Origin: a virus
Strand: one strand, 5' to 3'
Virus record (IMG/VR): IMGVR_UViG_3300025120_010918
Span: 1 to 24,464 of that record
DNA length: 24,464 bases
Shown here: piece by piece, positions 1 to 20,279 of the stretch
Position numbering within the stretch: position 1 is the stretch's first letter
Layout: each line of letters starts with the position of its first letter
Program-made: the position numbers and the translations under genes
Notes under the pieces: model-generated
The model's input: the letters and a program-made list of their open reading frames with translations, nothing else
Databases searched by the model: none
Told to the model about the DNA's origin: nothing

Positions 1-162
1 ACGTAAACTATCTTCATGTTTTTGTCCTGCTTCAATACAAGTATAATGTGCATCTGGCCAAAACTTTTTTACAGCGTTAGTCCATCTGCCATTCCAGGCA
101 CCTAAATCTAATACTCTTTTTGGTGAGTCAAGTGTTTGCAAGTAGTCATACATTTCATCCAT
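1..162 (-). CDS. SAM-dependent methyltransferase, N-terminal part (runs off left edge)
   Basis: This is the first 54 codons of a gene that leaves the window on the left. It starts at the ATG at 162-160. Residues around 17-26 read VLDLGAWNGR, a typical motif I (glycine-rich SAM-binding loop) of class I methyltransferases. It is followed by CIEAG, which fits the acidic residue that binds the ribose of SAM. The loop resembles that of the FkbM protein at 1883-2509 (VIDVGAWCGTW), so the two may be related sugar or glycan O-methyltransferases. The start overlaps the end of the upstream glycosyltransferase by 8 bases, so it is probably co-transcribed with the minus-strand glycan genes. The substrate cannot be told from this fragment. 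Confidence 0.75.
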   Translation of the reverse strand, partial: MDEMYDYLQTLDSPKRVLDLGAWNGRWTNAVKKFWPDAHYTCIEAGQKHEDSLR

Positions 163-862
163 TTATTTTTTTCCGTAATACTTCAATATCAGTTTGTAAA
201 TGTCTATCTCTTACTTTTGTCCAAACAAAATTATCTCTGTAATTAATGTTGAAATTCTTCCGTATTTGTTTACCAGCGTTGTCATTTATGATCTTTTTAG
301 CCTTAAATGTCACTGTTGGCAGATAAAGGCATCTACCTAACTTACGTGCAACTTTTTGTGTATAAGTGTCCACATGCCAATGCCAAAAGAAAGGAGGTGC
401 TAGGTATCCTAATGTATCCACCCAATTTTTATGTACCGCAAAATGTGCCGCTGGCAGTGGTTCATCTGGCCAGAGTTTTGTTTCACTACCTGAATTTTTA
501 TTACCTTTGGCTCTACCATCACTTGGCACTACCATAAGAATCTTGTCCTCATATCTATTGAATTCGTCTGCTATCAACTGATCCCAGTCCTGTGTTTGCA
601 CCTGGACATCATCGCCCATGAGCATAACAATATCGTTGGTTGCTTTCTCAGACATAAGATTCCAACTGTAGCAGGTGGACTGATTTGGTCCAACTGTATA
701 ATGTTTTTCGTCCAGTAAATCTTTGTATTGTTCTAACATTTCATCATCGTCATTGAGGTAAAATAAAAATTCTGTGTTGTGTTTTTGTGTTGCAGTAGCA
801 GTGTCGACTAGTCTTTTTGCCAGTTCGGGTCTGCCTCTCGATGGACAACAGAACGAAATCAT
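155..862 (-). CDS. GT2-like (GT-A fold) glycosyltransferase
   Basis: A 235-aa protein that probably transfers a sugar from a nucleotide sugar. The N-terminus (ISFCCPSRGRPE) is the first beta strand and loop of GT-A glycosyltransferases. An NDDDE motif at about residues 37-41 and a second acidic motif, MLMGDD, at about 80-85 fit nucleotide and metal binding. A WHWHVDTY stretch towards the C-terminus may carry acceptor-side or metal residues. I chose the ATG at 862 because it forms an ATGA overlap with the stop of the epimerase gene. A TTG six codons upstream (880) is possible but less likely. No membrane segment or signal peptide is visible. The neighbours are sugar-nucleotide and methyltransferase genes, which supports a glycan role. 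Donor and acceptor are unknown. Confidence 0.72.
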   Translation of the reverse strand: MISFCCPSRGRPELAKRLVDTATATQKHNTEFLFYLNDDDEMLEQYKDLLDEKHYTVGPNQSTCYSWNLMSEKATNDIVMLMGDDVQVQTQDWDQLIADEFNRYEDKILMVVPSDGRAKGNKNSGSETKLWPDEPLPAAHFAVHKNWVDTLGYLAPPFFWHWHVDTYTQKVARKLGRCLYLPTVTFKAKKIINDNAGKQIRKNFNINYRDNFVWTKVRDRHLQTDIEVLRKKING

Positions 863-1863
863 ATCAATTTCTTCTTCCAAGTATCAGGAGTTTGGTCATT
901 GATAATTTCTAGCGGCAAGTGGTATTGAAACTTTTTTGTACCTCTGGTTCTTATGTACTCGGCTGTCTTCTTGACTGACTGTCGCATGTTTGTCGCTGTG
1001 TTGTATCCTAATAAATCCCTTGCTTTGTCTGATGAACACACTGCTAGTTTTACTTCCTTGGGTCTGTCTTTGTGATGTATGGGATCTAAATTAAGTCCTG
1101 TTTCGTTTGCACATGCCTCTGCTAACTCATTGATTGTTATAGGTTCTTCGTCTGGTCCTATATTAATTACTTCACCAACAACGTTATCACGAAATGCTAA
1201 TGCATTCAAACAATACAAACAATCATCAATGTAACTGAAACATCTTTGTTGCTTGCCATCTCCATATATGATAGGCTGTTTGCCTTGTAACATTCTATTC
1301 AACATGATGGACATAACATTTCTAAACGGGTCGTCGTACTTCTGTCTTGGTCCAACTATGTTGTGTGGTACAGCAATTACGTACTCTACTCCATGTGTTT
1401 CGCATAAGTTTCTTAACACATCTTCGCCGGCCTTCTTTGCGATTCCATATGGATCTTGAGGACGACACTCGTAAGTTTCTTTGTATGGCATCTCATCATG
1501 ATGTCCATATCTTGCCATGCTAGAACAATACACAATACGTTTTACTTTGTTCCTTATGGCCGCCGTAATAGTTGTAACTGATGCTTCAAATATATTTCGT
1601 GTAACAAGCACAGGAGAAAATACTGATAGTCCTTCGTAAGCCGTAGCGGCAGTATGATACACTATGTCACAACCCTCCATGGCTTTGGTCATGTTCTCCA
1701 AATCGCAACAGTCCACTTGGTGAAACTCTACATTCTGCGGAACATTATCTGTATAACCACCAATCATATTATCATTACCAGCCACGGTGTGGCCTTCTGA
1801 TATCATTAAATCTGCTAGATGAGAACCTAAAAATCCTGCTACACCTGTTATAAAAATTTTCAT
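859..1863 (-). CDS. NAD-dependent sugar epimerase/dehydratase (extended SDR)
   Basis: A 334-aa extended short-chain dehydrogenase that probably modifies a nucleotide sugar in the cytoplasm. The N-terminal Rossmann motif is TGVAGFLGSH (residues 6-15), fitting GxxGxxG for NAD(P) binding. The catalytic set is visible as CSSM (113-116) and YGIAK (Y139, K143). Later motifs such as FSYIDD and INIGPDEEPITI are those of UDP-glucose 4-epimerase-like and dTDP-sugar dehydratase-like enzymes. The exact reaction (epimerase, dehydratase or reductase) cannot be decided from sequence alone. Length is normal for the family. The gene follows the FkbM gene after 19 bases and overlaps the next glycosyltransferase by ATGA, so it belongs to the minus-strand operon. 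No clear Shine-Dalgarno sequence precedes the ATG. Confidence 0.85.
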   Translation of the reverse strand: MKIFITGVAGFLGSHLADLMISEGHTVAGNDNMIGGYTDNVPQNVEFHQVDCCDLENMTKAMEGCDIVYHTAATAYEGLSVFSPVLVTRNIFEASVTTITAAIRNKVKRIVYCSSMARYGHHDEMPYKETYECRPQDPYGIAKKAGEDVLRNLCETHGVEYVIAVPHNIVGPRQKYDDPFRNVMSIMLNRMLQGKQPIIYGDGKQQRCFSYIDDCLYCLNALAFRDNVVGEVINIGPDEEPITINELAEACANETGLNLDPIHHKDRPKEVKLAVCSSDKARDLLGYNTATNMRQSVKKTAEYIRTRGTKKFQYHLPLEIINDQTPDTWKKKLI

Positions 1864-1882
1864 TTTGAGTATTTAATTTAAG

Positions 1883-2509
1883 TTATGCACGATAAAAAAC
1901 TTTATCAGGCCAGTGTTCTATCAGCACCTTGAACCCTAGCGAGCTTATATGTTTCTCTATTTCGGTATTAGTGCTTCCATATTTTTTAGTGTTGTTGTTT
2001 AATTCTATCATTAGGTACATTATATTTTTTAATGTGTTCTTTGCACCTTTCAACACTTCCATTTCATATCCTTCGACGTCGATCTTGATCATGTCAACAT
2101 CCTGACAATTTAAATTATCTAGTGTTGTCATTCTTATGTCACCCTGTCTATCCACTCTTTTTGCCTGTGTAAAATTGTCTTCCGTCAATGATATTTCTTT
2201 TATTTCCGAACCAACTGCTTCCATTCTAGGGTGGCAGTTAATCGTACAGTTCTTTTGTAAACATTCAAAATGTGTTTTGTCGGGTTCGAATGCAATTACT
2301 TTTTCAGCATATGGTTCGATGGCCTTAGACCATGTTCCGCACCATGCACCCACATCTATCACAGTTTTCATTTTTTTATTTTGCACTTCACAGTGCTTTA
2401 GAAACTTATTCAAACATTTATTTTGAGTGAAAGGTTGTCCAGACTTCCATTGCTCTATGTGTATATCGTTTGATGGTACCCAAAAGCCGTTAATTTTTTC
2501 TATTTTCAT
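1883..2509 (-). CDS. FkbM family methyltransferase
   Basis: A 208-aa SAM-dependent methyltransferase. Motif I is VIDVGAWCGTW (residues 50-60) and the next acidic motif is FEPD (74-77). The FkbM signature TTLDNL (128-133) followed by DMIKIDVEGYE (139-149) is clear. FkbM members O-methylate sugars or small hydroxylated molecules, and many lie in polysaccharide clusters, so glycan methylation is the likely job here. The start ATG overlaps the stop of the preceding gene as ATGA. An AAAGGA ribosome binding site lies 6-7 bases upstream. No sign of truncation is visible. Confidence 0.85.
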   Translation of the reverse strand: MKIEKINGFWVPSNDIHIEQWKSGQPFTQNKCLNKFLKHCEVQNKKMKTVIDVGAWCGTWSKAIEPYAEKVIAFEPDKTHFECLQKNCTINCHPRMEAVGSEIKEISLTEDNFTQAKRVDRQGDIRMTTLDNLNCQDVDMIKIDVEGYEMEVLKGAKNTLKNIMYLMIELNNNTKKYGSTNTEIEKHISSLGFKVLIEHWPDKVFYRA

Positions 2510-3318
2510 AATATTCCTTTGTCCATCAATATCTCAACTGCTGTACCGTTGCTGATCTCCTCCGGAGTGAACTGTTGGTATGCTAGACTGTACAACCATG
2601 GTTCGGGTCCAGCATAAAAAGGATCCTCAATATCTTCTAGGTTTAAATTGCCCATTGGCTCAGCAAAACTTTTTCTATCACAGAACACAGGCACGCCCAT
2701 ACAAACGGCCTCAACAGCACTGATACTGCAACTGGTCACACACGCCCAAGCATCTTTTAGGTCCTCGGATAAGGGTACCTTTGCCTCACTTGGTCCTGAT
2801 GTACCTCTGCCCCTAGGCTTGTCTCGAAGTTTGATCGGCCTGTCAGTGACTCTTTTTAATCTATCTATCGTGTCTTGCGTCCAATCTGGAGTGTCGAGAT
2901 AGTTGTGGATACCTGTTGAACTAGGACACACTAAAATATATGAGCCTTTCAACGTTGGCGCTTTAATCTGCATTCCAAATTTTTCAAACCTATCTGCTTT
3001 ACAATCTTTTAAAAATCTTGCATGTATTTGATTTTTACATACACGCCAATAATGATTATCCTGTTTTAAATTGTTATTGTCAAATCTACCAAAGTATGGA
3101 GTGTCAGTGAACCAGTAATTGTGATTACGTGCTTCTAATTTCTTTATCATCGGTCTGTTGTTGCCAACAAATCCCCAAAACATGCTGTTGTTCACCGGAT
3201 CCGTTTCTTTGGTGTTATCTAACTTGGCTATCTGGTCTGGCCACGACTTTTCAACGCCGGCAAACACTTCCCATGCTTTGCTGTTTTTATTATTAAATGG
3301 TGCGTAAATTGTTAACAT
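2506..3318 (-). CDS. Capsule-polysaccharide/Kdo-transferase-like glycosyltransferase (paralog 1 of 4)
   Basis: A 270-aa protein and the only minus-strand member of a four-gene family in this window (others at 6980, 7785 and 11397). Shared blocks are a strand ending TDRPIKLR (about 158-165), the segment DAWACVTSCSISAVEAVCMG (189-208) followed by VPVF, and a C-terminal LAYQQFTPEEISNG (245-258). The last two blocks resemble the C-terminal nucleotide-sugar half of GT-B proteins of the KpsS/KpsC capsule type. Where two paralogs have RPHP, this one has RDKP, so activity or donor may differ. It overlaps the SGNH gene by 26 bases and the FkbM gene by ATGA. The family call is by motif resemblance, and the sugar is unknown. 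Confidence 0.6.
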   Translation of the reverse strand: MLTIYAPFNNKNSKAWEVFAGVEKSWPDQIAKLDNTKETDPVNNSMFWGFVGNNRPMIKKLEARNHNYWFTDTPYFGRFDNNNLKQDNHYWRVCKNQIHARFLKDCKADRFEKFGMQIKAPTLKGSYILVCPSSTGIHNYLDTPDWTQDTIDRLKRVTDRPIKLRDKPRGRGTSGPSEAKVPLSEDLKDAWACVTSCSISAVEAVCMGVPVFCDRKSFAEPMGNLNLEDIEDPFYAGPEPWLYSLAYQQFTPEEISNGTAVEILMDKGIL

Positions 3319-3958
3319 CTATAAATTCTTTAATTTGTTTTGCCCACTGCCTATGTCCTTCTACTGATGGGTGTGGATCGTTTGGACTTACGATTAAATT
3401 TTTGTCTGATATAAATTCTAGTTGACTTGTCCCTGGACTAAAAAATCTATCCATATTGATTGCATTTTTAATTACATTAAAGTCCTCTGTGCCATTACCA
3501 AAATTATTAGGCAATGAATTATACATAACGTAAGGTATCCGCTTACGTTCAAAATAATTCTGTAAATCAAAAACATTATCAAGAAAATTCATTGTAAGAT
3601 TATTTTCTATGTCCCACCCCTTGTGGTTACGTATGAAACTTACATTGTCTAATGTCTTCCATGTTCTCCACGTGAGCTCTGTGCCTGGGCTACGACCTTT
3701 CTTCCATCCGTCATCCGTTATGTAATCATTCCTGATTGAACTCGACCATCCTATGACAGCAAAAATCTTTTCATCCTTATTTTGTTCGCACCAAACTTTT
3801 GTAGAAAAACTTATCCTGGTATTGCCCCTGCCACCCATGGCCAAGTTGACGAGTCCTATATCATAATTGTCTGCCAGTATCTGTGTGGTAAAAGTTTCCA
3901 CACCATCTTTATTTCTTGGTGTTAGGAAACTACATCCATTTGATAATAATTTGCTCAT
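3293..3958 (-). CDS. SGNH/GDSL hydrolase-like protein
   Basis: A 221-aa protein with the layout of SGNH hydrolases. Block I is NGCSF (residues 7-11, with the candidate nucleophile S10), followed by a glycine/asparagine block MGGRGN (41-46) and a C-terminal NDPHPSVEGH (193-202) supplying the Asp and His. In glycan clusters such proteins often add or remove O-acetyl or other acyl groups, which would fit here. The ATG at 3958 is preferred over an in-frame ATG at 4027. The latter would run across the divergent promoter and overlap the start of the opposite gene. It is the first gene of the minus-strand operon and overlaps the next by 26 bases. No signal peptide is seen, so it probably acts in the cytoplasm. 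Confidence 0.65.
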   Translation of the reverse strand: MSKLLSNGCSFLTPRNKDGVETFTTQILADNYDIGLVNLAMGGRGNTRISFSTKVWCEQNKDEKIFAVIGWSSSIRNDYITDDGWKKGRSPGTELTWRTWKTLDNVSFIRNHKGWDIENNLTMNFLDNVFDLQNYFERKRIPYVMYNSLPNNFGNGTEDFNVIKNAINMDRFFSPGTSQLEFISDKNLIVSPNDPHPSVEGHRQWAKQIKEFIDVNNLRTI

Positions 3959-4006
3959 GCTGTTGTTTAATAGTATAATTATAGTGTAGTTATTCACAAA
4001 ATGCAA
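3951..4006. promoter_or_regulatory. Symmetric bidirectional promoter
   Basis: The 50-base gap between divergent genes is centred on the perfect palindrome TATAATTATA (3974-3983). On the plus strand, TTGCTC (3951-3956), a 17-base spacer and TATAAT (3974-3979) form a sigma70-type promoter. On the minus strand, TTGCAT (4006-4001), 17 bases and TATAAT (3983-3978) form another. The two -10 boxes share bases, so only one can be opened at a time. Predicted leaders are about 23 bases (plus) and 13 bases (minus). The -35 boxes match consensus at only 3 of 6 positions. Confidence 0.55.
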
Positions 4007-4008
4007 AC

Positions 4009-5088
4009 ATGAAAAACATAGATTCAATCAAGTATTTTCTAGAAAAATGGGAAACTGTTGATACAAGTTACGATTACACCGTTCCATATCATGAGGACAT
4101 AGATCCAAATTTCACAAGTTTACCAACTTTTGTTGCTGAATTTTATGATTGCAAAGTACATAGTTGTCCGTTACTTGTTACCTATCAGCAGAAATTGATA
4201 ACCAATTATATATGGGGCCTTACCGATCAACGCAGAAACAAACCAGACAAGACACACAGACTTTGGAAAGAGTGGGGAGACGAGGTACACGCAGATCTAC
4301 CGCCCGTTAGTGAACACTTTCATGAGAAATATAATTATGTTTGGTTGCCTATCGACGAAGAGAGTGTTAACAATCCATGGCACATATGGATCGATGTCAT
4401 ATCTAAATTTAGATTATTAGAAAAGAGATGGTCCACCGATTTCACAAAATACTGCTATGTGTTGGCAAACGAGAGCGGATATTTTAAAAAAGTAATTCAA
4501 GAATTATTTCCTGAAATTAAAGTCCTTGTCATGCCAAAAAACGAAACATGGCAATTCAAACATTTACTTGTACCCAGTGCAAGTAATTCAAAAGATGGAG
4601 TAATTACGCCCCACCTGGCACCATGGCTGAGACACTTCAAAGGTATCAATAAAGATCAAAAAGAACCACATAGAAAAATTGTTGTACTGCGTCCAGGAGC
4701 AAAAACAAGACGACTTACCAATTCCGAAGAATTATTATTGGCCTTGAAAGGATGGGAAACAATAGTATTAGAGACCATGACAATTAGAGAACAAATTAGA
4801 ACATTTGCTGAAGCAACCCACATTGTTGCGGCACATGGAGCAGGGTTGGTTAACCTACTTTGGTGTAAGCCGGGTACAAAAGTAATCGAAATACAAGACA
4901 GAAAAATGATTCATAAAAAGGTTTATCCACTGCTTTCATACCACCTCGGATTGAAACATGAACTATATTTGGCAGACACAGTGCCAATAAAATTAAAAGA
5001 CGGTAAAAAACCCAAAGGTATTAAAAGAATAAGTGATTTAATAAATTTTAAAATTGATATACCTGACTTGCTTAAATATCTTGATTGA
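4009..5088 (+). CDS. GT61 (DUF563) family glycosyltransferase
   Basis: A 359-aa protein with the hallmarks of glycosyltransferase family 61. The middle has NPWHIWIDVISKF (122-134), in the place of the family's N-x-x-H-x-x-x-D stretch. After it comes RKIVVLRPGAKTRRLTNSEE (222-241), the usual basic block before the C-terminal domain. The signature AAHGAGLVNLLW (274-285), followed by PGTKVIEIQ, is very clear. The family includes xylosyl- and other pentosyl/hexosyltransferases, and bacterial and phage members usually sit in surface-glycan clusters. It is the first gene of the plus-strand arm, served by the divergent promoter. No membrane segment is visible. Donor and acceptor are not known. Confidence 0.85.
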   Translation: MKNIDSIKYFLEKWETVDTSYDYTVPYHEDIDPNFTSLPTFVAEFYDCKVHSCPLLVTYQQKLITNYIWGLTDQRRNKPDKTHRLWKEWGDEVHADLPPVSEHFHEKYNYVWLPIDEESVNNPWHIWIDVISKFRLLEKRWSTDFTKYCYVLANESGYFKKVIQELFPEIKVLVMPKNETWQFKHLLVPSASNSKDGVITPHLAPWLRHFKGINKDQKEPHRKIVVLRPGAKTRRLTNSEELLLALKGWETIVLETMTIREQIRTFAEATHIVAAHGAGLVNLLWCKPGTKVIEIQDRKMIHKKVYPLLSYHLGLKHELYLADTVPIKLKDGKKPKGIKRISDLINFKIDIPDLLKYLD

Positions 5089-5090
5089 CA

Positions 5091-5990
5091 ATGAAAATTA
5101 AAGTAATTACATCATACAAACCCGGTTGTTGGAATCTATACGCTAAAAAAGGAATAGAATCAATGGCAGAACAATTTCCTAAAGAAATTGACTTGGTTGT
5201 TTATGCTGAAGAACCAAAACGGCCATGCAAATTCGAAAGGATCGAGTGGATAGATTTAAAAACTGCAGAGCCTGAACTTACTGCATTCAAACAGAGACAC
5301 AAGGATGATCCAGTGGCTCATGGCAAATTAGAAACTAAAGAAAATGGCGTTCGTAGAGTACCTGAACTGCAAACGCTTGGCGGCTCTGACAAGAACAAAG
5401 AATCTTTCTTATGGAATGCTGTGCGTTTTGCAAACAAAGTATTTTGTGTAGTCAATGGACTACGTAATTCCAAAGGCTATGACTATGTGGTTTGGATAGA
5501 TGCTGACACATTTTCGTTTCGCCCTGTTCCACTGGATTGGTTTGAGAAATTATTACCAAACGATACCATGGTCACTTACCTTGGCAGAGAAAATCCAAAG
5601 TTAGGTGATGGTGGCAAATATCCCGAGTGTGGCTTTGTTGGTTATAATTGTAATCATCCAGAAATACAGAATTTCATAGACGACTGGGAGCAATTATACG
5701 TGACCGACAATGTATTCAAGATTTTAGAATGGCATGACAGTTACGTTTTTTGGCATTTAACAAAAATATACAGGAAAGAAAAAAATATAAAAGTGAATGA
5801 CATCGGTTATTGGAAAGGTGTAAAAGGACACCATGTGTTTGTAAACAGTGAACTCGGTTTATACATGGATCACATGAAAGGCAATCGTAAAACAAAAGGC
5901 ACCAGCGTCAAGAACGATCTTAGACAAAATCCAAACGTCAAAGTAAATGTGCAGGACATAGAATATTGGAAAAAAGTACCGCCAGCGTAG
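5091..5990 (+). CDS. DxD-motif (GT-A) glycosyltransferase, twin of 10540-11397
   Basis: A 299-aa protein starting MKIKVITSYKPG. A DAD motif inside VVWIDADTFSFRP (133-145) is the metal and nucleotide-sugar site of GT-A glycosyltransferases. ECGFVGYN, a typical middle block, follows. The ATG at 5091 is chosen over an in-frame TTG at 5085 because the twin gene at 10540 starts at exactly this point, MKIKVITSYKPG. The start lies two bases after the stop of the GT61 gene. The two twins are alike over almost their whole length (shared SELGLYMDH and KGNRK near the end), which indicates duplication inside the island. A tail of about 35 residues after that is charged and variable. The sugar is unknown. 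Confidence 0.78.
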   Translation: MKIKVITSYKPGCWNLYAKKGIESMAEQFPKEIDLVVYAEEPKRPCKFERIEWIDLKTAEPELTAFKQRHKDDPVAHGKLETKENGVRRVPELQTLGGSDKNKESFLWNAVRFANKVFCVVNGLRNSKGYDYVVWIDADTFSFRPVPLDWFEKLLPNDTMVTYLGRENPKLGDGGKYPECGFVGYNCNHPEIQNFIDDWEQLYVTDNVFKILEWHDSYVFWHLTKIYRKEKNIKVNDIGYWKGVKGHHVFVNSELGLYMDHMKGNRKTKGTSVKNDLRQNPNVKVNVQDIEYWKKVPPA

Positions 5991-13449: not shown

Positions 13450-13477
13450 TTGACTGCTTTACCAAATATGTTATAAT
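13450..13477 (+). promoter_or_regulatory. Strong sigma70-type (early) promoter
   Basis: TTGACT (13450-13455), 16 bases and TATAAT (13472-13477) match the sigma70 consensus at 11 of 12 positions. It points towards the 453-aa gene and the UvsW operon, with a predicted start near 13484 and a leader of about 18 bases. The -35 box sits just upstream of the SprT-like start codon on the other strand. Confidence 0.7.
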
Positions 13478-13501: not shown

Positions 13502-14863
13502 ATGGACAATATGCACATAGATTTGCCAAAAACAATTAACGAAGCACTCAAAATACTAGCATATAATGATTATTTTTGGTCCGACTCCTTATCTAGCCAA
13601 AAGAGCCATATTAAACCACATCCAAAGGATCAAGAGACAGTGAGGTCGCTGGCAGAATCGCAGTATGCATGGACCGAGAAGCAGGCCAGATTAGCACTGG
13701 TCATACTGAAAAGATACCTGTCCAAGTTCCAGGCACACGGTATGGACATCAAGAAATTGCTAGACACACCAGTGTATGAGGACGACTTCCGTGTGATAAG
13801 TTTTGACAAAGTAATAGAGAAATACACAGATGAAGATAATATTGACAGGATAGAAATGAGATTTCCTTACAACAAGAAAGTAATACAACTGATACGTTGC
13901 ATGAAAGACCAACGTGGCCTACCTGGAATGTATGCATTGTATGATGGTGAGAAAAAGAAATGGACTTTCTTGCACAGCGACGTTACTGCCTACTACCTAA
14001 CACTGATAGCGGTAAGATACGATTTCAAATTCATGGACGAAAGTCTACTCGACGACTACGAAGAAATCAAGAAAGAAGTAGTCGGACATCGACAACCAAC
14101 AGCAAGATTGATAGCAGGTGAGATTGTGTTAGACAATGCTACTGAATCACTACAGGAATATTGGGATGAAAATTTGAGAGGCAAAACAGTATTGGCCCAA
14201 GTGGACTCGTTGAAAAACTTTAGCATATCAACCAAAGGGATCAACGTGCCTGCAAAGACCACAGTAGGTCACAAAGTAGCACATAACAATTACCACAAGT
14301 TATGGATAGACTCAAAAGGATTCAGCAAGAACGAAGTTGTCAAAGGATTGATAGAATTGGATTGTTTTCCATTGATGATGCCGGTCAGTGGAGACATACA
14401 TATGCAGGAAGACGTCAAGAATTTTTGGGAATGGCTTAACGCCTTCAAATCATTCGGTATAGACATATTGAATGATTGCAGTTGGGGATTTGATGTGAAA
14501 GAACCTGTGTATTCAAAAGATTACAAAGACGGGATGACGTCACCGGAAAGGACTCAACTAATTAACAACGGCACGTCACAAGAGTTTTTTCAAAACTTAT
14601 TTGAACTGCATCAGATGAGCAAACAGTTCAAACTTATTAATGATAAAACCAAAATTATATTTGTAAGGAACAGAATACCAAGAGCATTGATCAAGAGCAA
14701 GATAAAACCAAAAGCATCATTGGTCGCACTGGGCGGCGGTTATTATGCAACAGGCACAGACAACTTGAAAAGAATGCTTGAAAATCTTCCAAAAAAGTTG
14801 TATTATAGTGATCACCAACCGAGTAGTTGGGATTGGCAAGATCACGTAATAGTAAAAATTTAA
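13502..14863 (+). CDS. Unknown 453-aa phage protein, first gene of the UvsW operon
   Basis: I do not recognise this protein. It has no transmembrane segment, signal peptide or Walker motif. The first 100 residues look helical (with AWTEKQARLALVILKRYL as a clear amphipathic stretch). The middle is mixed alpha/beta with an HRQPTAR turn. The end contains LVALGGGYYATGTDN followed by LYYSDHQPSSWDWQDHVIV, a glycine-rich turn then an aromatic/histidine-rich tail. It is the first gene after the strong early promoter and stops one base before the uvsW start, so it is almost certainly co-expressed with the helicase. A role in DNA repair, recombination or replication is inference from position only. Start at the ATG at 13502. 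An internal ATG three codons on is also possible. Confidence 0.85.
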   Translation: MDNMHIDLPKTINEALKILAYNDYFWSDSLSSQKSHIKPHPKDQETVRSLAESQYAWTEKQARLALVILKRYLSKFQAHGMDIKKLLDTPVYEDDFRVISFDKVIEKYTDEDNIDRIEMRFPYNKKVIQLIRCMKDQRGLPGMYALYDGEKKKWTFLHSDVTAYYLTLIAVRYDFKFMDESLLDDYEEIKKEVVGHRQPTARLIAGEIVLDNATESLQEYWDENLRGKTVLAQVDSLKNFSISTKGINVPAKTTVGHKVAHNNYHKLWIDSKGFSKNEVVKGLIELDCFPLMMPVSGDIHMQEDVKNFWEWLNAFKSFGIDILNDCSWGFDVKEPVYSKDYKDGMTSPERTQLINNGTSQEFFQNLFELHQMSKQFKLINDKTKIIFVRNRIPRALIKSKIKPKASLVALGGGYYATGTDNLKRMLENLPKKLYYSDHQPSSWDWQDHVIVKI

Positions 14864-19451: not shown

Positions 19452-19459
19452 TATAAATA
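19452..19459 (+). promoter_or_regulatory. T4-type late promoter TATAAATA
   Basis: TATAAATA is the exact T4 late promoter element, used by the phage sigma gp55 with gp33/gp45. It lies 16 bases before the ATG of the structural gene at 19476, so the predicted start near 19465 gives a leader of only about 10 bases. No other exact copy was noticed on either strand in the window. Confidence 0.8.
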
Positions 19460-19475
19460 CTGTTAAATATGTATT

Positions 19476-20279
19476 ATGCAAACAGTACAAAGGTATTTAA
19501 TAAATCAATTGGTAATCGCCTACATAAATGGTTATCACGGAAGGAACTCAAAAGTGTACGATAGACGCTTAACATTGCACAGAGGGGTATCAAACCCAGT
19601 CTCATTCACGTTTAAGAACGAGGATCAGAAGGCACAGGACATTACTTCTAAGACCTACGAGTTCAACATGATTGATTCTGAGACTAAGAAAGCAATTCTC
19701 ACAAAGACATTGACTGTGTTAGATGACGGATCAACAGTGAGTACAAAAGGCGATGCTAGTTGCACAATCACAGAAGGCGACCTATTACCGCTAGATGCCA
19801 AATTCTACAACTTCTCTGTCCGTGAAGTCAAGTCAGATGGTAGCAGGGAGATCACGTATGCAGACACAGGATACGCGGCCGCTGGCACTGTTGAACTATT
19901 AGATGGTGCATACCCAGAATTTGTAGCAAGTACAAGTGTATCAAGTTTCACAGCACCAGGTGGTCCATTAACTTACACATCGGGATCCATAGATGCAAGG
20001 CCAGGCATCAATAATAACAAAGCACTACACACTATCGCAGTGTACACAAAGAACTTCACTGGAGCATTGAGGGTTCAAGGAACAATGAGTGCTTCACCGA
20101 GCAACACAGATTACTTTGATATTACCATGGAAGGTGCAGGATCAACTGCAAACTCTTTCACTGACTCAACAACAGTTACCAACTTCAACTTCACAGGCGT
20201 TTATCACAGCGTGAGATTCAGTTGGGGCAACAGCACTGATAATACCGGTGTGATTGACAAAATCCTATATAGACAGTAA
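19476..20279 (+). CDS. Putative virion structural protein (baseplate/tail-fibre type)
   Basis: A 267-aa, beta-rich, Ser/Thr/Asn-rich protein with no catalytic motifs. The N-terminal stretch (SKVYDRRLTLHRGVSNPVSF, then FKNEDQKAQDIT) has the form of the N-terminal domain of phage baseplate/fibre upper proteins (BppU-like) that attach to the virion. The C-terminal half (SIDARPGI ... NFTGALRVQGTMSASP ... FNFTGVYHSVRFSW) looks like a jelly-roll or receptor-side domain. The T4 late promoter just upstream supports a late, virion role. It stands alone between early genes. Its place on the virion is not known, and the N-terminal relationship is from memory of such proteins. Confidence 0.72.
   Translation: MQTVQRYLINQLVIAYINGYHGRNSKVYDRRLTLHRGVSNPVSFTFKNEDQKAQDITSKTYEFNMIDSETKKAILTKTLTVLDDGSTVSTKGDASCTITEGDLLPLDAKFYNFSVREVKSDGSREITYADTGYAAAGTVELLDGAYPEFVASTSVSSFTAPGGPLTYTSGSIDARPGINNNKALHTIAVYTKNFTGALRVQGTMSASPSNTDYFDITMEGAGSTANSFTDSTTVTNFNFTGVYHSVRFSWGNSTDNTGVIDKILYRQ

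Follow-up and report, generated by a model that had tools for sequence, protein, structure and literature searches.

To our knowledge, studies of bidirectional promoters have dealt with cellular genomes and with plasmids, and there is little comparative evidence that both of their directions are under selection. Symmetric bidirectional promoters of bacteria, in which the −10 elements of the two strands overlap, were reportedly described by Warman et al. in 2021, and the PeSLs of T4-type phages are said to have been described by Arbiol in 2010 and by Comeau in 2014. In the portions of the literature covered here, the divergent starts of bidirectional promoters lie 7–25 bp apart, with distances of 18 (the commonest), 10 and 23 bp favored (PMC12825309), and the 18-bp distance is the form in which positions −7 and −11 coincide (PMC10268837). 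At five E. coli bidirectional promoters that were tested, basal firing was too low for the polymerases to compete, and competition appeared once one direction was strongly activated (PMC12825309, in the portions covered). As far as the sections consulted go, PeSLs are short intergenic sequences with an early promoter, located where genes of T4-type phages are shuffled (PMC4503421, PMC5348500), and in phage rV5 bidirectional σ70-type promoters were predicted between divergent genes by consensus search (PMC3606486). We recognized no symmetric two-way phage promoter serving as a recombination seam in the open-licence PMC literature, judged mostly by title and the start of the abstract.

The window analyzed here, a whole stretch of 24,464 bases, is one uncultivated virus record in which two divergent gene arms meet at a short gap (Table 1). 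Judging from its sequence and that of its relatives, this gap is probably a divergent promoter of the host σ70 type that starts both arms and, at the same time, a seam for exchange of the SGNH gene. As in rV5, a σ70-type promoter is called between divergent phage genes; rV5 is one phage, and a shared −10, comparative support and a seam are not reported in the portions of that paper covered (PMC3606486). Like a PeSL, the gap carries a promoter of early type, by its sequence, and marks the borders of gene shuffling. Unlike PeSLs, it is divergent rather than tandem, has no stem-loop and is present in one copy in the window record. The predicted fold of the gap is −0.6 kcal/mol, with 195 of 200 shuffles folding at least as well, and a terminator scan listed none at the gap. 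Dispersal of the PeSL kind was not seen: the window has one site and a 196-kb relative has two when as many as 3 mismatches are allowed, of which one is at another locus; both records are fragments. With neither stem-loop nor dispersal, a dispersed PeSL was ruled out.

Results

Organization of the locus and its relatives

The minus arm consists of five genes (155–3958), including an epimerase and an FkbM methyltransferase, and the plus arm, which begins at 4009, includes a glycosyltransferase of family 61 (GT61), a GDP-mannose dehydratase and an asparagine synthase; genes for replication (helicase, primase and DnaB) follow the plus arm. SGNH and GT61 are sugar-modification genes, and the two arms form a glycan-modification island of an uncultivated marine phage. 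Neither of the two genes had a match among 50,697 records of cultured phages, and the DNA of positions 3000–5400 likewise had none among cultured phages. Pfam returned nothing above threshold for the SGNH gene product, the only match being a sub-threshold one to DUF6071. The first structural matches of its predicted model (mean pLDDT 67) were SGNH esterases and peptidoglycan O-acetyltransferases, led by EstA (3hp4, E 2e-4) and PatB (7tlv, E 9e-4), both of which we take to be SGNH proteins; going by the model, the product may acylate or deacylate a glycan. Because the ATG at 4001 is the in-frame start in distant relatives, the start codon of GT61 has apparently moved in the window lineage. A Shine-Dalgarno comparison across the window genes found the strong word missing from most of them, and its absence at the two genes flanking the gap is therefore uninformative.

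Table 1. Coordinates of the gap, its flanking genes and the promoter elements in the window (groups of relatives are defined in the text).
Feature	Position	Strand	Remarks
Intergenic gap between the divergent SGNH and GT61 genes	3959..4008 (50 bp)		Candidate two-way promoter and recombination seam
SGNH-fold hydrolase gene, first of minus arm	3293..3958	−	Swapped cassette; Pfam, model, trees
Glycosyltransferase family 61 gene, first of plus arm	4009..5088	+	PF04577, E 2.3e-21
Three-codon ORF, ATG CAA ACA TGA	4001..4012	+	Overlaps GT61 start; more distant relatives use this ATG as in-frame start
TATAATTATA, −10-type hexamer on both strands	3974..3983		SGNH replacement breaks at its left edge against L002, L005, L006, L007
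Plus −10, TATAAT	3974..3979	+	Predicted start near 3986, 23-nt leader; 9/9 in the window's group, g50
Plus −35, TTGCTC	3951..3956	+	Spacer 17; in first codons of the opposite SGNH gene, conservation confounded by coding
Minus −10, TATAAT	3978..3983	−	Predicted start near 3971, 13-nt leader; TATAAT in g50 9/9, g43 40/41
Minus −35, TTGCAT	4001..4006	−	Exactly 17 bp from −10; reverse complement of the relict start codon context ATGCAA
Pseudo-palindrome ATAATTATA-G-TGTAGTTAT	3975..3993 (19 bp)		7/9 pairs; each strand has two hexamer-like boxes
Positive control, TTGACT-N16-TATAAT with TG extension, helicase operon	13450..13477	+	Top matrix score in the window

Relatives were collected by a scan with GT61, which kept 80 of 106 confirmed loci, and by scans with SGNH (44 loci), DnaB (80 of at least 600) and the gene at 13502 (80 of 98). 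At 157 of the 168 loci with a GT61 start, a minus-strand ORF of at least 150 aa stands head-to-head within 74 nt; the 11 loci without such an ORF were removed by the filter, and merging identical 300-nt contexts gave 91 distinct contexts. These were grouped by gap sequence into g50 (n = 9, with the window), g43 (n = 41, with leftovers), g36 (n = 9) and g34 (n = 32). The grouping pattern was taken from the seam itself, so that counts within a group are not independent of it, and the relatives are clustered and non-independent. The head-to-head layout of SGNH and GT61, a direct observation, is constant among the retained relatives.

Predicted promoter boxes at the palindrome

The first-pass annotation had named two −10 boxes within one palindrome, each with a TTG-type −35 at 17 bp; on a letter check all boxes, coordinates and both spacers were exact, and the −10 boxes do share bases, 3978–3979 being common to both strands. 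This overlap likens the window, in its letters, to the symmetric bidirectional promoters of bacteria, and g34 is alike in the TATTATA of its two strands. Unlike those promoters, the window has a full candidate −35 on either side, each 17 bp away, both of these lie at or in the starts of the opposite genes, its predicted starts are 15 bp apart rather than at one of the favored distances, and the promoter is a predicted one in an uncultivated phage. The −35s of the window are weak, TTGCTC and TTGCAT each agreeing with TTGACA at 3 of 6 positions. Since each −35 is located at or inside the start region of the opposite gene, SGNH or GT61, the gap can shrink to 34–50 bp. The earlier reading had missed both this nesting and the role of the gap as a recombination seam.

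The 19-bp pseudo-palindrome is more perfect in some relatives than in the window. A near copy of it with 2 mismatches stands just before a tandem-oriented gene in a 196-kb relative (L286:2408-2426).

Sites were scored with an E. coli σ70 matrix, which may not be that of the host. By this matrix the minus site ranks 13th (9.8) and the plus site 18th (9.4) among all window positions. A simple consensus scan gave the minus site as TTTGCA-18-TATAAT and did not list the plus site at 3974.

The predicted minus promoter among relatives

In g50 and g43, a TTG was observed exactly 17 bp from the minus TATAAT in 46 of 50 contexts (9/9 and 37/41, respectively), and in none of the 50 did it lie at 15, 16, 18 or 19 bp. 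The −35 hexamers themselves vary (TTGCAT, TTGCTA, TTGTAT, TTGTAA, TTGCAA and TTGGCA), as does the distance from the minus −35 to the GT61 start codon. In g34 the minus element is [CT]T[GA].CA-N18-TATAAT in 27 of 32 contexts, mostly with a TG extension; the site is weak in g36, with TATAAT in 1 of 9. The best minus scores exceeded those of block shuffles (p≤0.05) in 100% of g50, 95% of g43, 94% of g34 and 67% of g36 contexts; in 6 of the 9 g50 contexts, the window excepted, the matrix favors another minus box, TATACT, which lies 6 bp further on. The comparison strongly supports a predicted minus promoter conserved at exact spacing across most relatives. Its mRNAs would be nearly leaderless, since in most contexts of g34 and g43 the predicted starts precede the SGNH start codon by 0–3 nt.

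The candidate plus promoter among relatives

The compact bidirectional promoter proposed by the first pass survives in its minus half and in the conserved head-to-head layout. Its plus half is limited to certain groups: TTG-N17-TAT[AT]AT on the plus strand is present in 9/9 g50 contexts and, mirrored, in 27/32 of g34, and in 0/41 of g43. That the palindrome TATAATTATA is the essential element is not supported, as it is found in 26 of the 91 distinct contexts and is absent throughout two groups of the four. In g34 the plus box is TTGAAA or TTGAGA-17-TATTAT, with TATTATA common to the boxes of both strands, and the predicted starts are 18 bp apart in 29 of 32 contexts; by these predictions g34 resembles the favored form of the symmetric bidirectional promoters, in which the −7 and −11 bases are shared.

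The best plus scores exceeded those of block shuffles (p≤0.05) in 100% of g50, 27% of g43, 97% of g34 and 78% of g36 contexts. Conservation of the plus −35 in g50 is weak evidence, because this hexamer falls in the first SGNH codons and the nine g50 contexts carry near-identical SGNH starts; here, and in the coding overlaps, conservation may reflect the proteins. The predicted plus site at 3974–3979 thus likely fits the window and is not general across relatives. The plus arm of g43 must be served by another site, and the right half of the 19-bp pseudo-palindrome is among the candidates for it.

A possible reading, although we doubt it, is that the shared site holds a real promoter for the minus strand alone and that the GT61 arm is transcribed from the right half (3985–3990) or by read-through, the −10s standing back to back. 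Right-half boxes are indeed among the plus candidates of g43 (TATAGT with TAGGCA-17 and TATACT with TTAACA-17), g36 has TATAAT with TTGACA or TTAACA at 16, and relatives often lack the first T of the plus TATAAT. Against this, the right-half box of the window, TGTAGT, scores 2.5 compared to 9.4 for the plus site at 3974–3979, and the 27 plus boxes of g34 lie at the shared position.

Symmetry, chance and other candidate promoters of the phage

The pseudo-palindrome could also be mainly an operator, bound by a dimeric DNA-binding protein over both genes, with the promoter look-alikes arising from AT-rich symmetry. In 16 of 41 g43 contexts, 8 or 9 of the 9 palindrome pairs match, as against less than 1% of shuffles. 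In g34 and g36, however, the palindrome hardly differs in quality from shuffles (5–7 pairs; shuffled means 6.0 and 5.6), yet the promoter spacing of g34 holds, and an operator leaves a TTG at exactly 17 bp unexplained. We consider this explanation unlikely.

Single promoter-like sites are no better than chance, since the first 12 kb of the window contain 36 of them compared to 37.3 in shuffles. In 300 shuffles of the window, overlapping divergent pairs with both scores of at least 9.38 averaged 0.053 per shuffle, as against two in the actual sequence, the one at the gap and another at 3057/3060, within a gene. The palindrome TATAATTATA, of which the record holds one occurrence, appeared alone in 5% of 2000 shuffles, and TTG-N17-TATAATTATA-N17-CAA in 0 of 2000, or in 0.1% when 16–18 bp were allowed, in a post hoc test whose pattern was picked by eye. 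The combination of boxes exceeds chance. That the gap is simply AT-rich and promotes transcription in neither direction, its likeness among relatives coming from descent and recombination alone, would agree with the weak −35s and with the frequency of single sites; this is improbable, as the exact spacing persists despite differing hexamers and start-codon distances and the joint occurrence is rare in shuffles.

Elsewhere in these phages there are clear candidate σ70-type promoters. Ahead of the helicase operon, TTGAC[ACT]-N14..19-TATA[AC]T is found in 46 of 53 distinct contexts. The opposite strand of this promoter is poor (median 6.9 vs 13.1), and strong two-way scores are therefore not automatic between divergent genes of the phage. 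The spacer of the helicase promoter contains TTACCA in the window and in the listed relatives.

Late promoters of the T4 type are not known to need a −35. An exact octamer of this type, TATAAATA, is located at 19452–19459, ahead of the virion gene at 19476. Relatives have a similar octamer at this gene, with a conserved CTGTTAAATATGTA stretch downstream. Neither TATAAATA nor its AAATA core occurs in the gap (3959–4008), where the TTG spacing is conserved instead, so that a T4 gp55-type late promoter on each strand is very improbable there, and with the core missing this reading was ruled out.

Gene exchange at the gap

The SGNH proteins form two families with an identity of about 40%, one in 56 contexts and the other in 35, and members of both are found next to GT61 genes that are otherwise alike. 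The two families swap between constant neighbors in the manner of alleles. On the GT61 tree, the SGNH family label changes at least 17 times, or 13 times when only well-supported branches are counted, compared to 28 for shuffled labels. For the seam haplotypes, of which there are four, 9 changes were counted on the GT61 tree and 7 on the SGNH tree, against a minimum of 3, and haplotypes h1 to h3 are each paired with more than one GT61 cluster. SGNH families, haplotypes and GT61 clades thus form mosaics that can be observed directly.

Identical tracts cross the gap between relatives with diverged flanks: L004 and L024 share an exact tract of 99 nt, their SGNH and GT61 being 47% and 76% identical, and a 58-nt tract is common to L027 and the window (SGNH 42%, GT61 75%). 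Seam tracts of at least 45 nt were found in only 3 of 2347 pairs with SGNH below 65% and GT61 below 80%, and recent exchange of the bare seam is therefore uncommon. Sharing of the seam may in part be constraint rather than exchange.

Break points at the seam are likewise directly visible. When the window is compared to L002, L005, L006 and L007, the change point falls 35 nt before the GT61 start, at base 3974, with 99% identity to its right and 26–28% to its left. In 154 non-independent pairs that differ in SGNH family and have GT61 at 80% or above (2 pairs were skipped), 116 break points lie no more than 43 nt from the GT61 start; the other 38 are more than 50 nt upstream of it, and several of these are poorly fitted. 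To the left of SGNH, identity returns at the next gene, m2 (2506–3318), which is kept at 68–89% in all 71 contexts with enough sequence; the SGNH gene alone therefore seems to have been exchanged, between the gap and m2. By these comparisons the gap is a recombination seam, at which the SGNH gene has apparently been swapped repeatedly among related marine phages.

A scan of genome contigs gave four distant matches and one phage-like match. The latter, L288, is a contig binned as a Flavobacterium MAG, which carries the phage gap and a GT61 gene at 62% identity. It is probably a mis-binned phage, and possibly a hint of the host, although we assign none.

Discussion

Under the preferred reading of the gap as a divergent σ70-type promoter and exchange seam, host RNA polymerase would bind either way, transcribing the minus arm from TTGCAT-17-TATAAT (start near 3971) and the plus arm from TTGCTC-17-TATAAT (start near 3986). 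Recombination inside the gap would replace one flanking gene while expression of both is retained; such one-gene replacement without loss of expression would be possible because the gap is short, is needed by both genes and is near-identical in many lineages. We infer that the site fires, and with it the timing during infection and the ratio of the two directions. The overlap of the boxes had also been taken to make transcription of the arms mutually exclusive. The geometry bears this out insofar as two polymerases could not occupy the site together; at basal activity the effect is probably unimportant, and because basal competition was absent at the five E. coli promoters, mutual exclusion is a possibility rather than an expectation (PMC12825309, in the portions covered).

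Selection in the phage may have favored the seam as such; alternatively, the seam may simply be where recombination shows up. A further proposal, which we put forward tentatively and regard as more doubtful than not, is that exchange is brought about by the two-way promoter itself: with its −35 boxes nested at the starts of both flanking genes, this symmetric stretch of about 50 bp would serve as a patch of homology through which the first gene of either arm could be replaced, each arm still having a working promoter afterwards, and after each swap the plus start could shift between lineages by use of spare hexamers in the pseudo-palindrome. The features most likely to be unusual are the nesting of the predicted −35s at the starts of the opposing genes and the doubling of a putative promoter as a recombination seam.

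Many divergent lineages carry the same head-to-head pair, so that selection on each direction can be read from the spacing. The link to gene exchange points to a simple way in which phages may vary their glycan-modification genes with expression unbroken.
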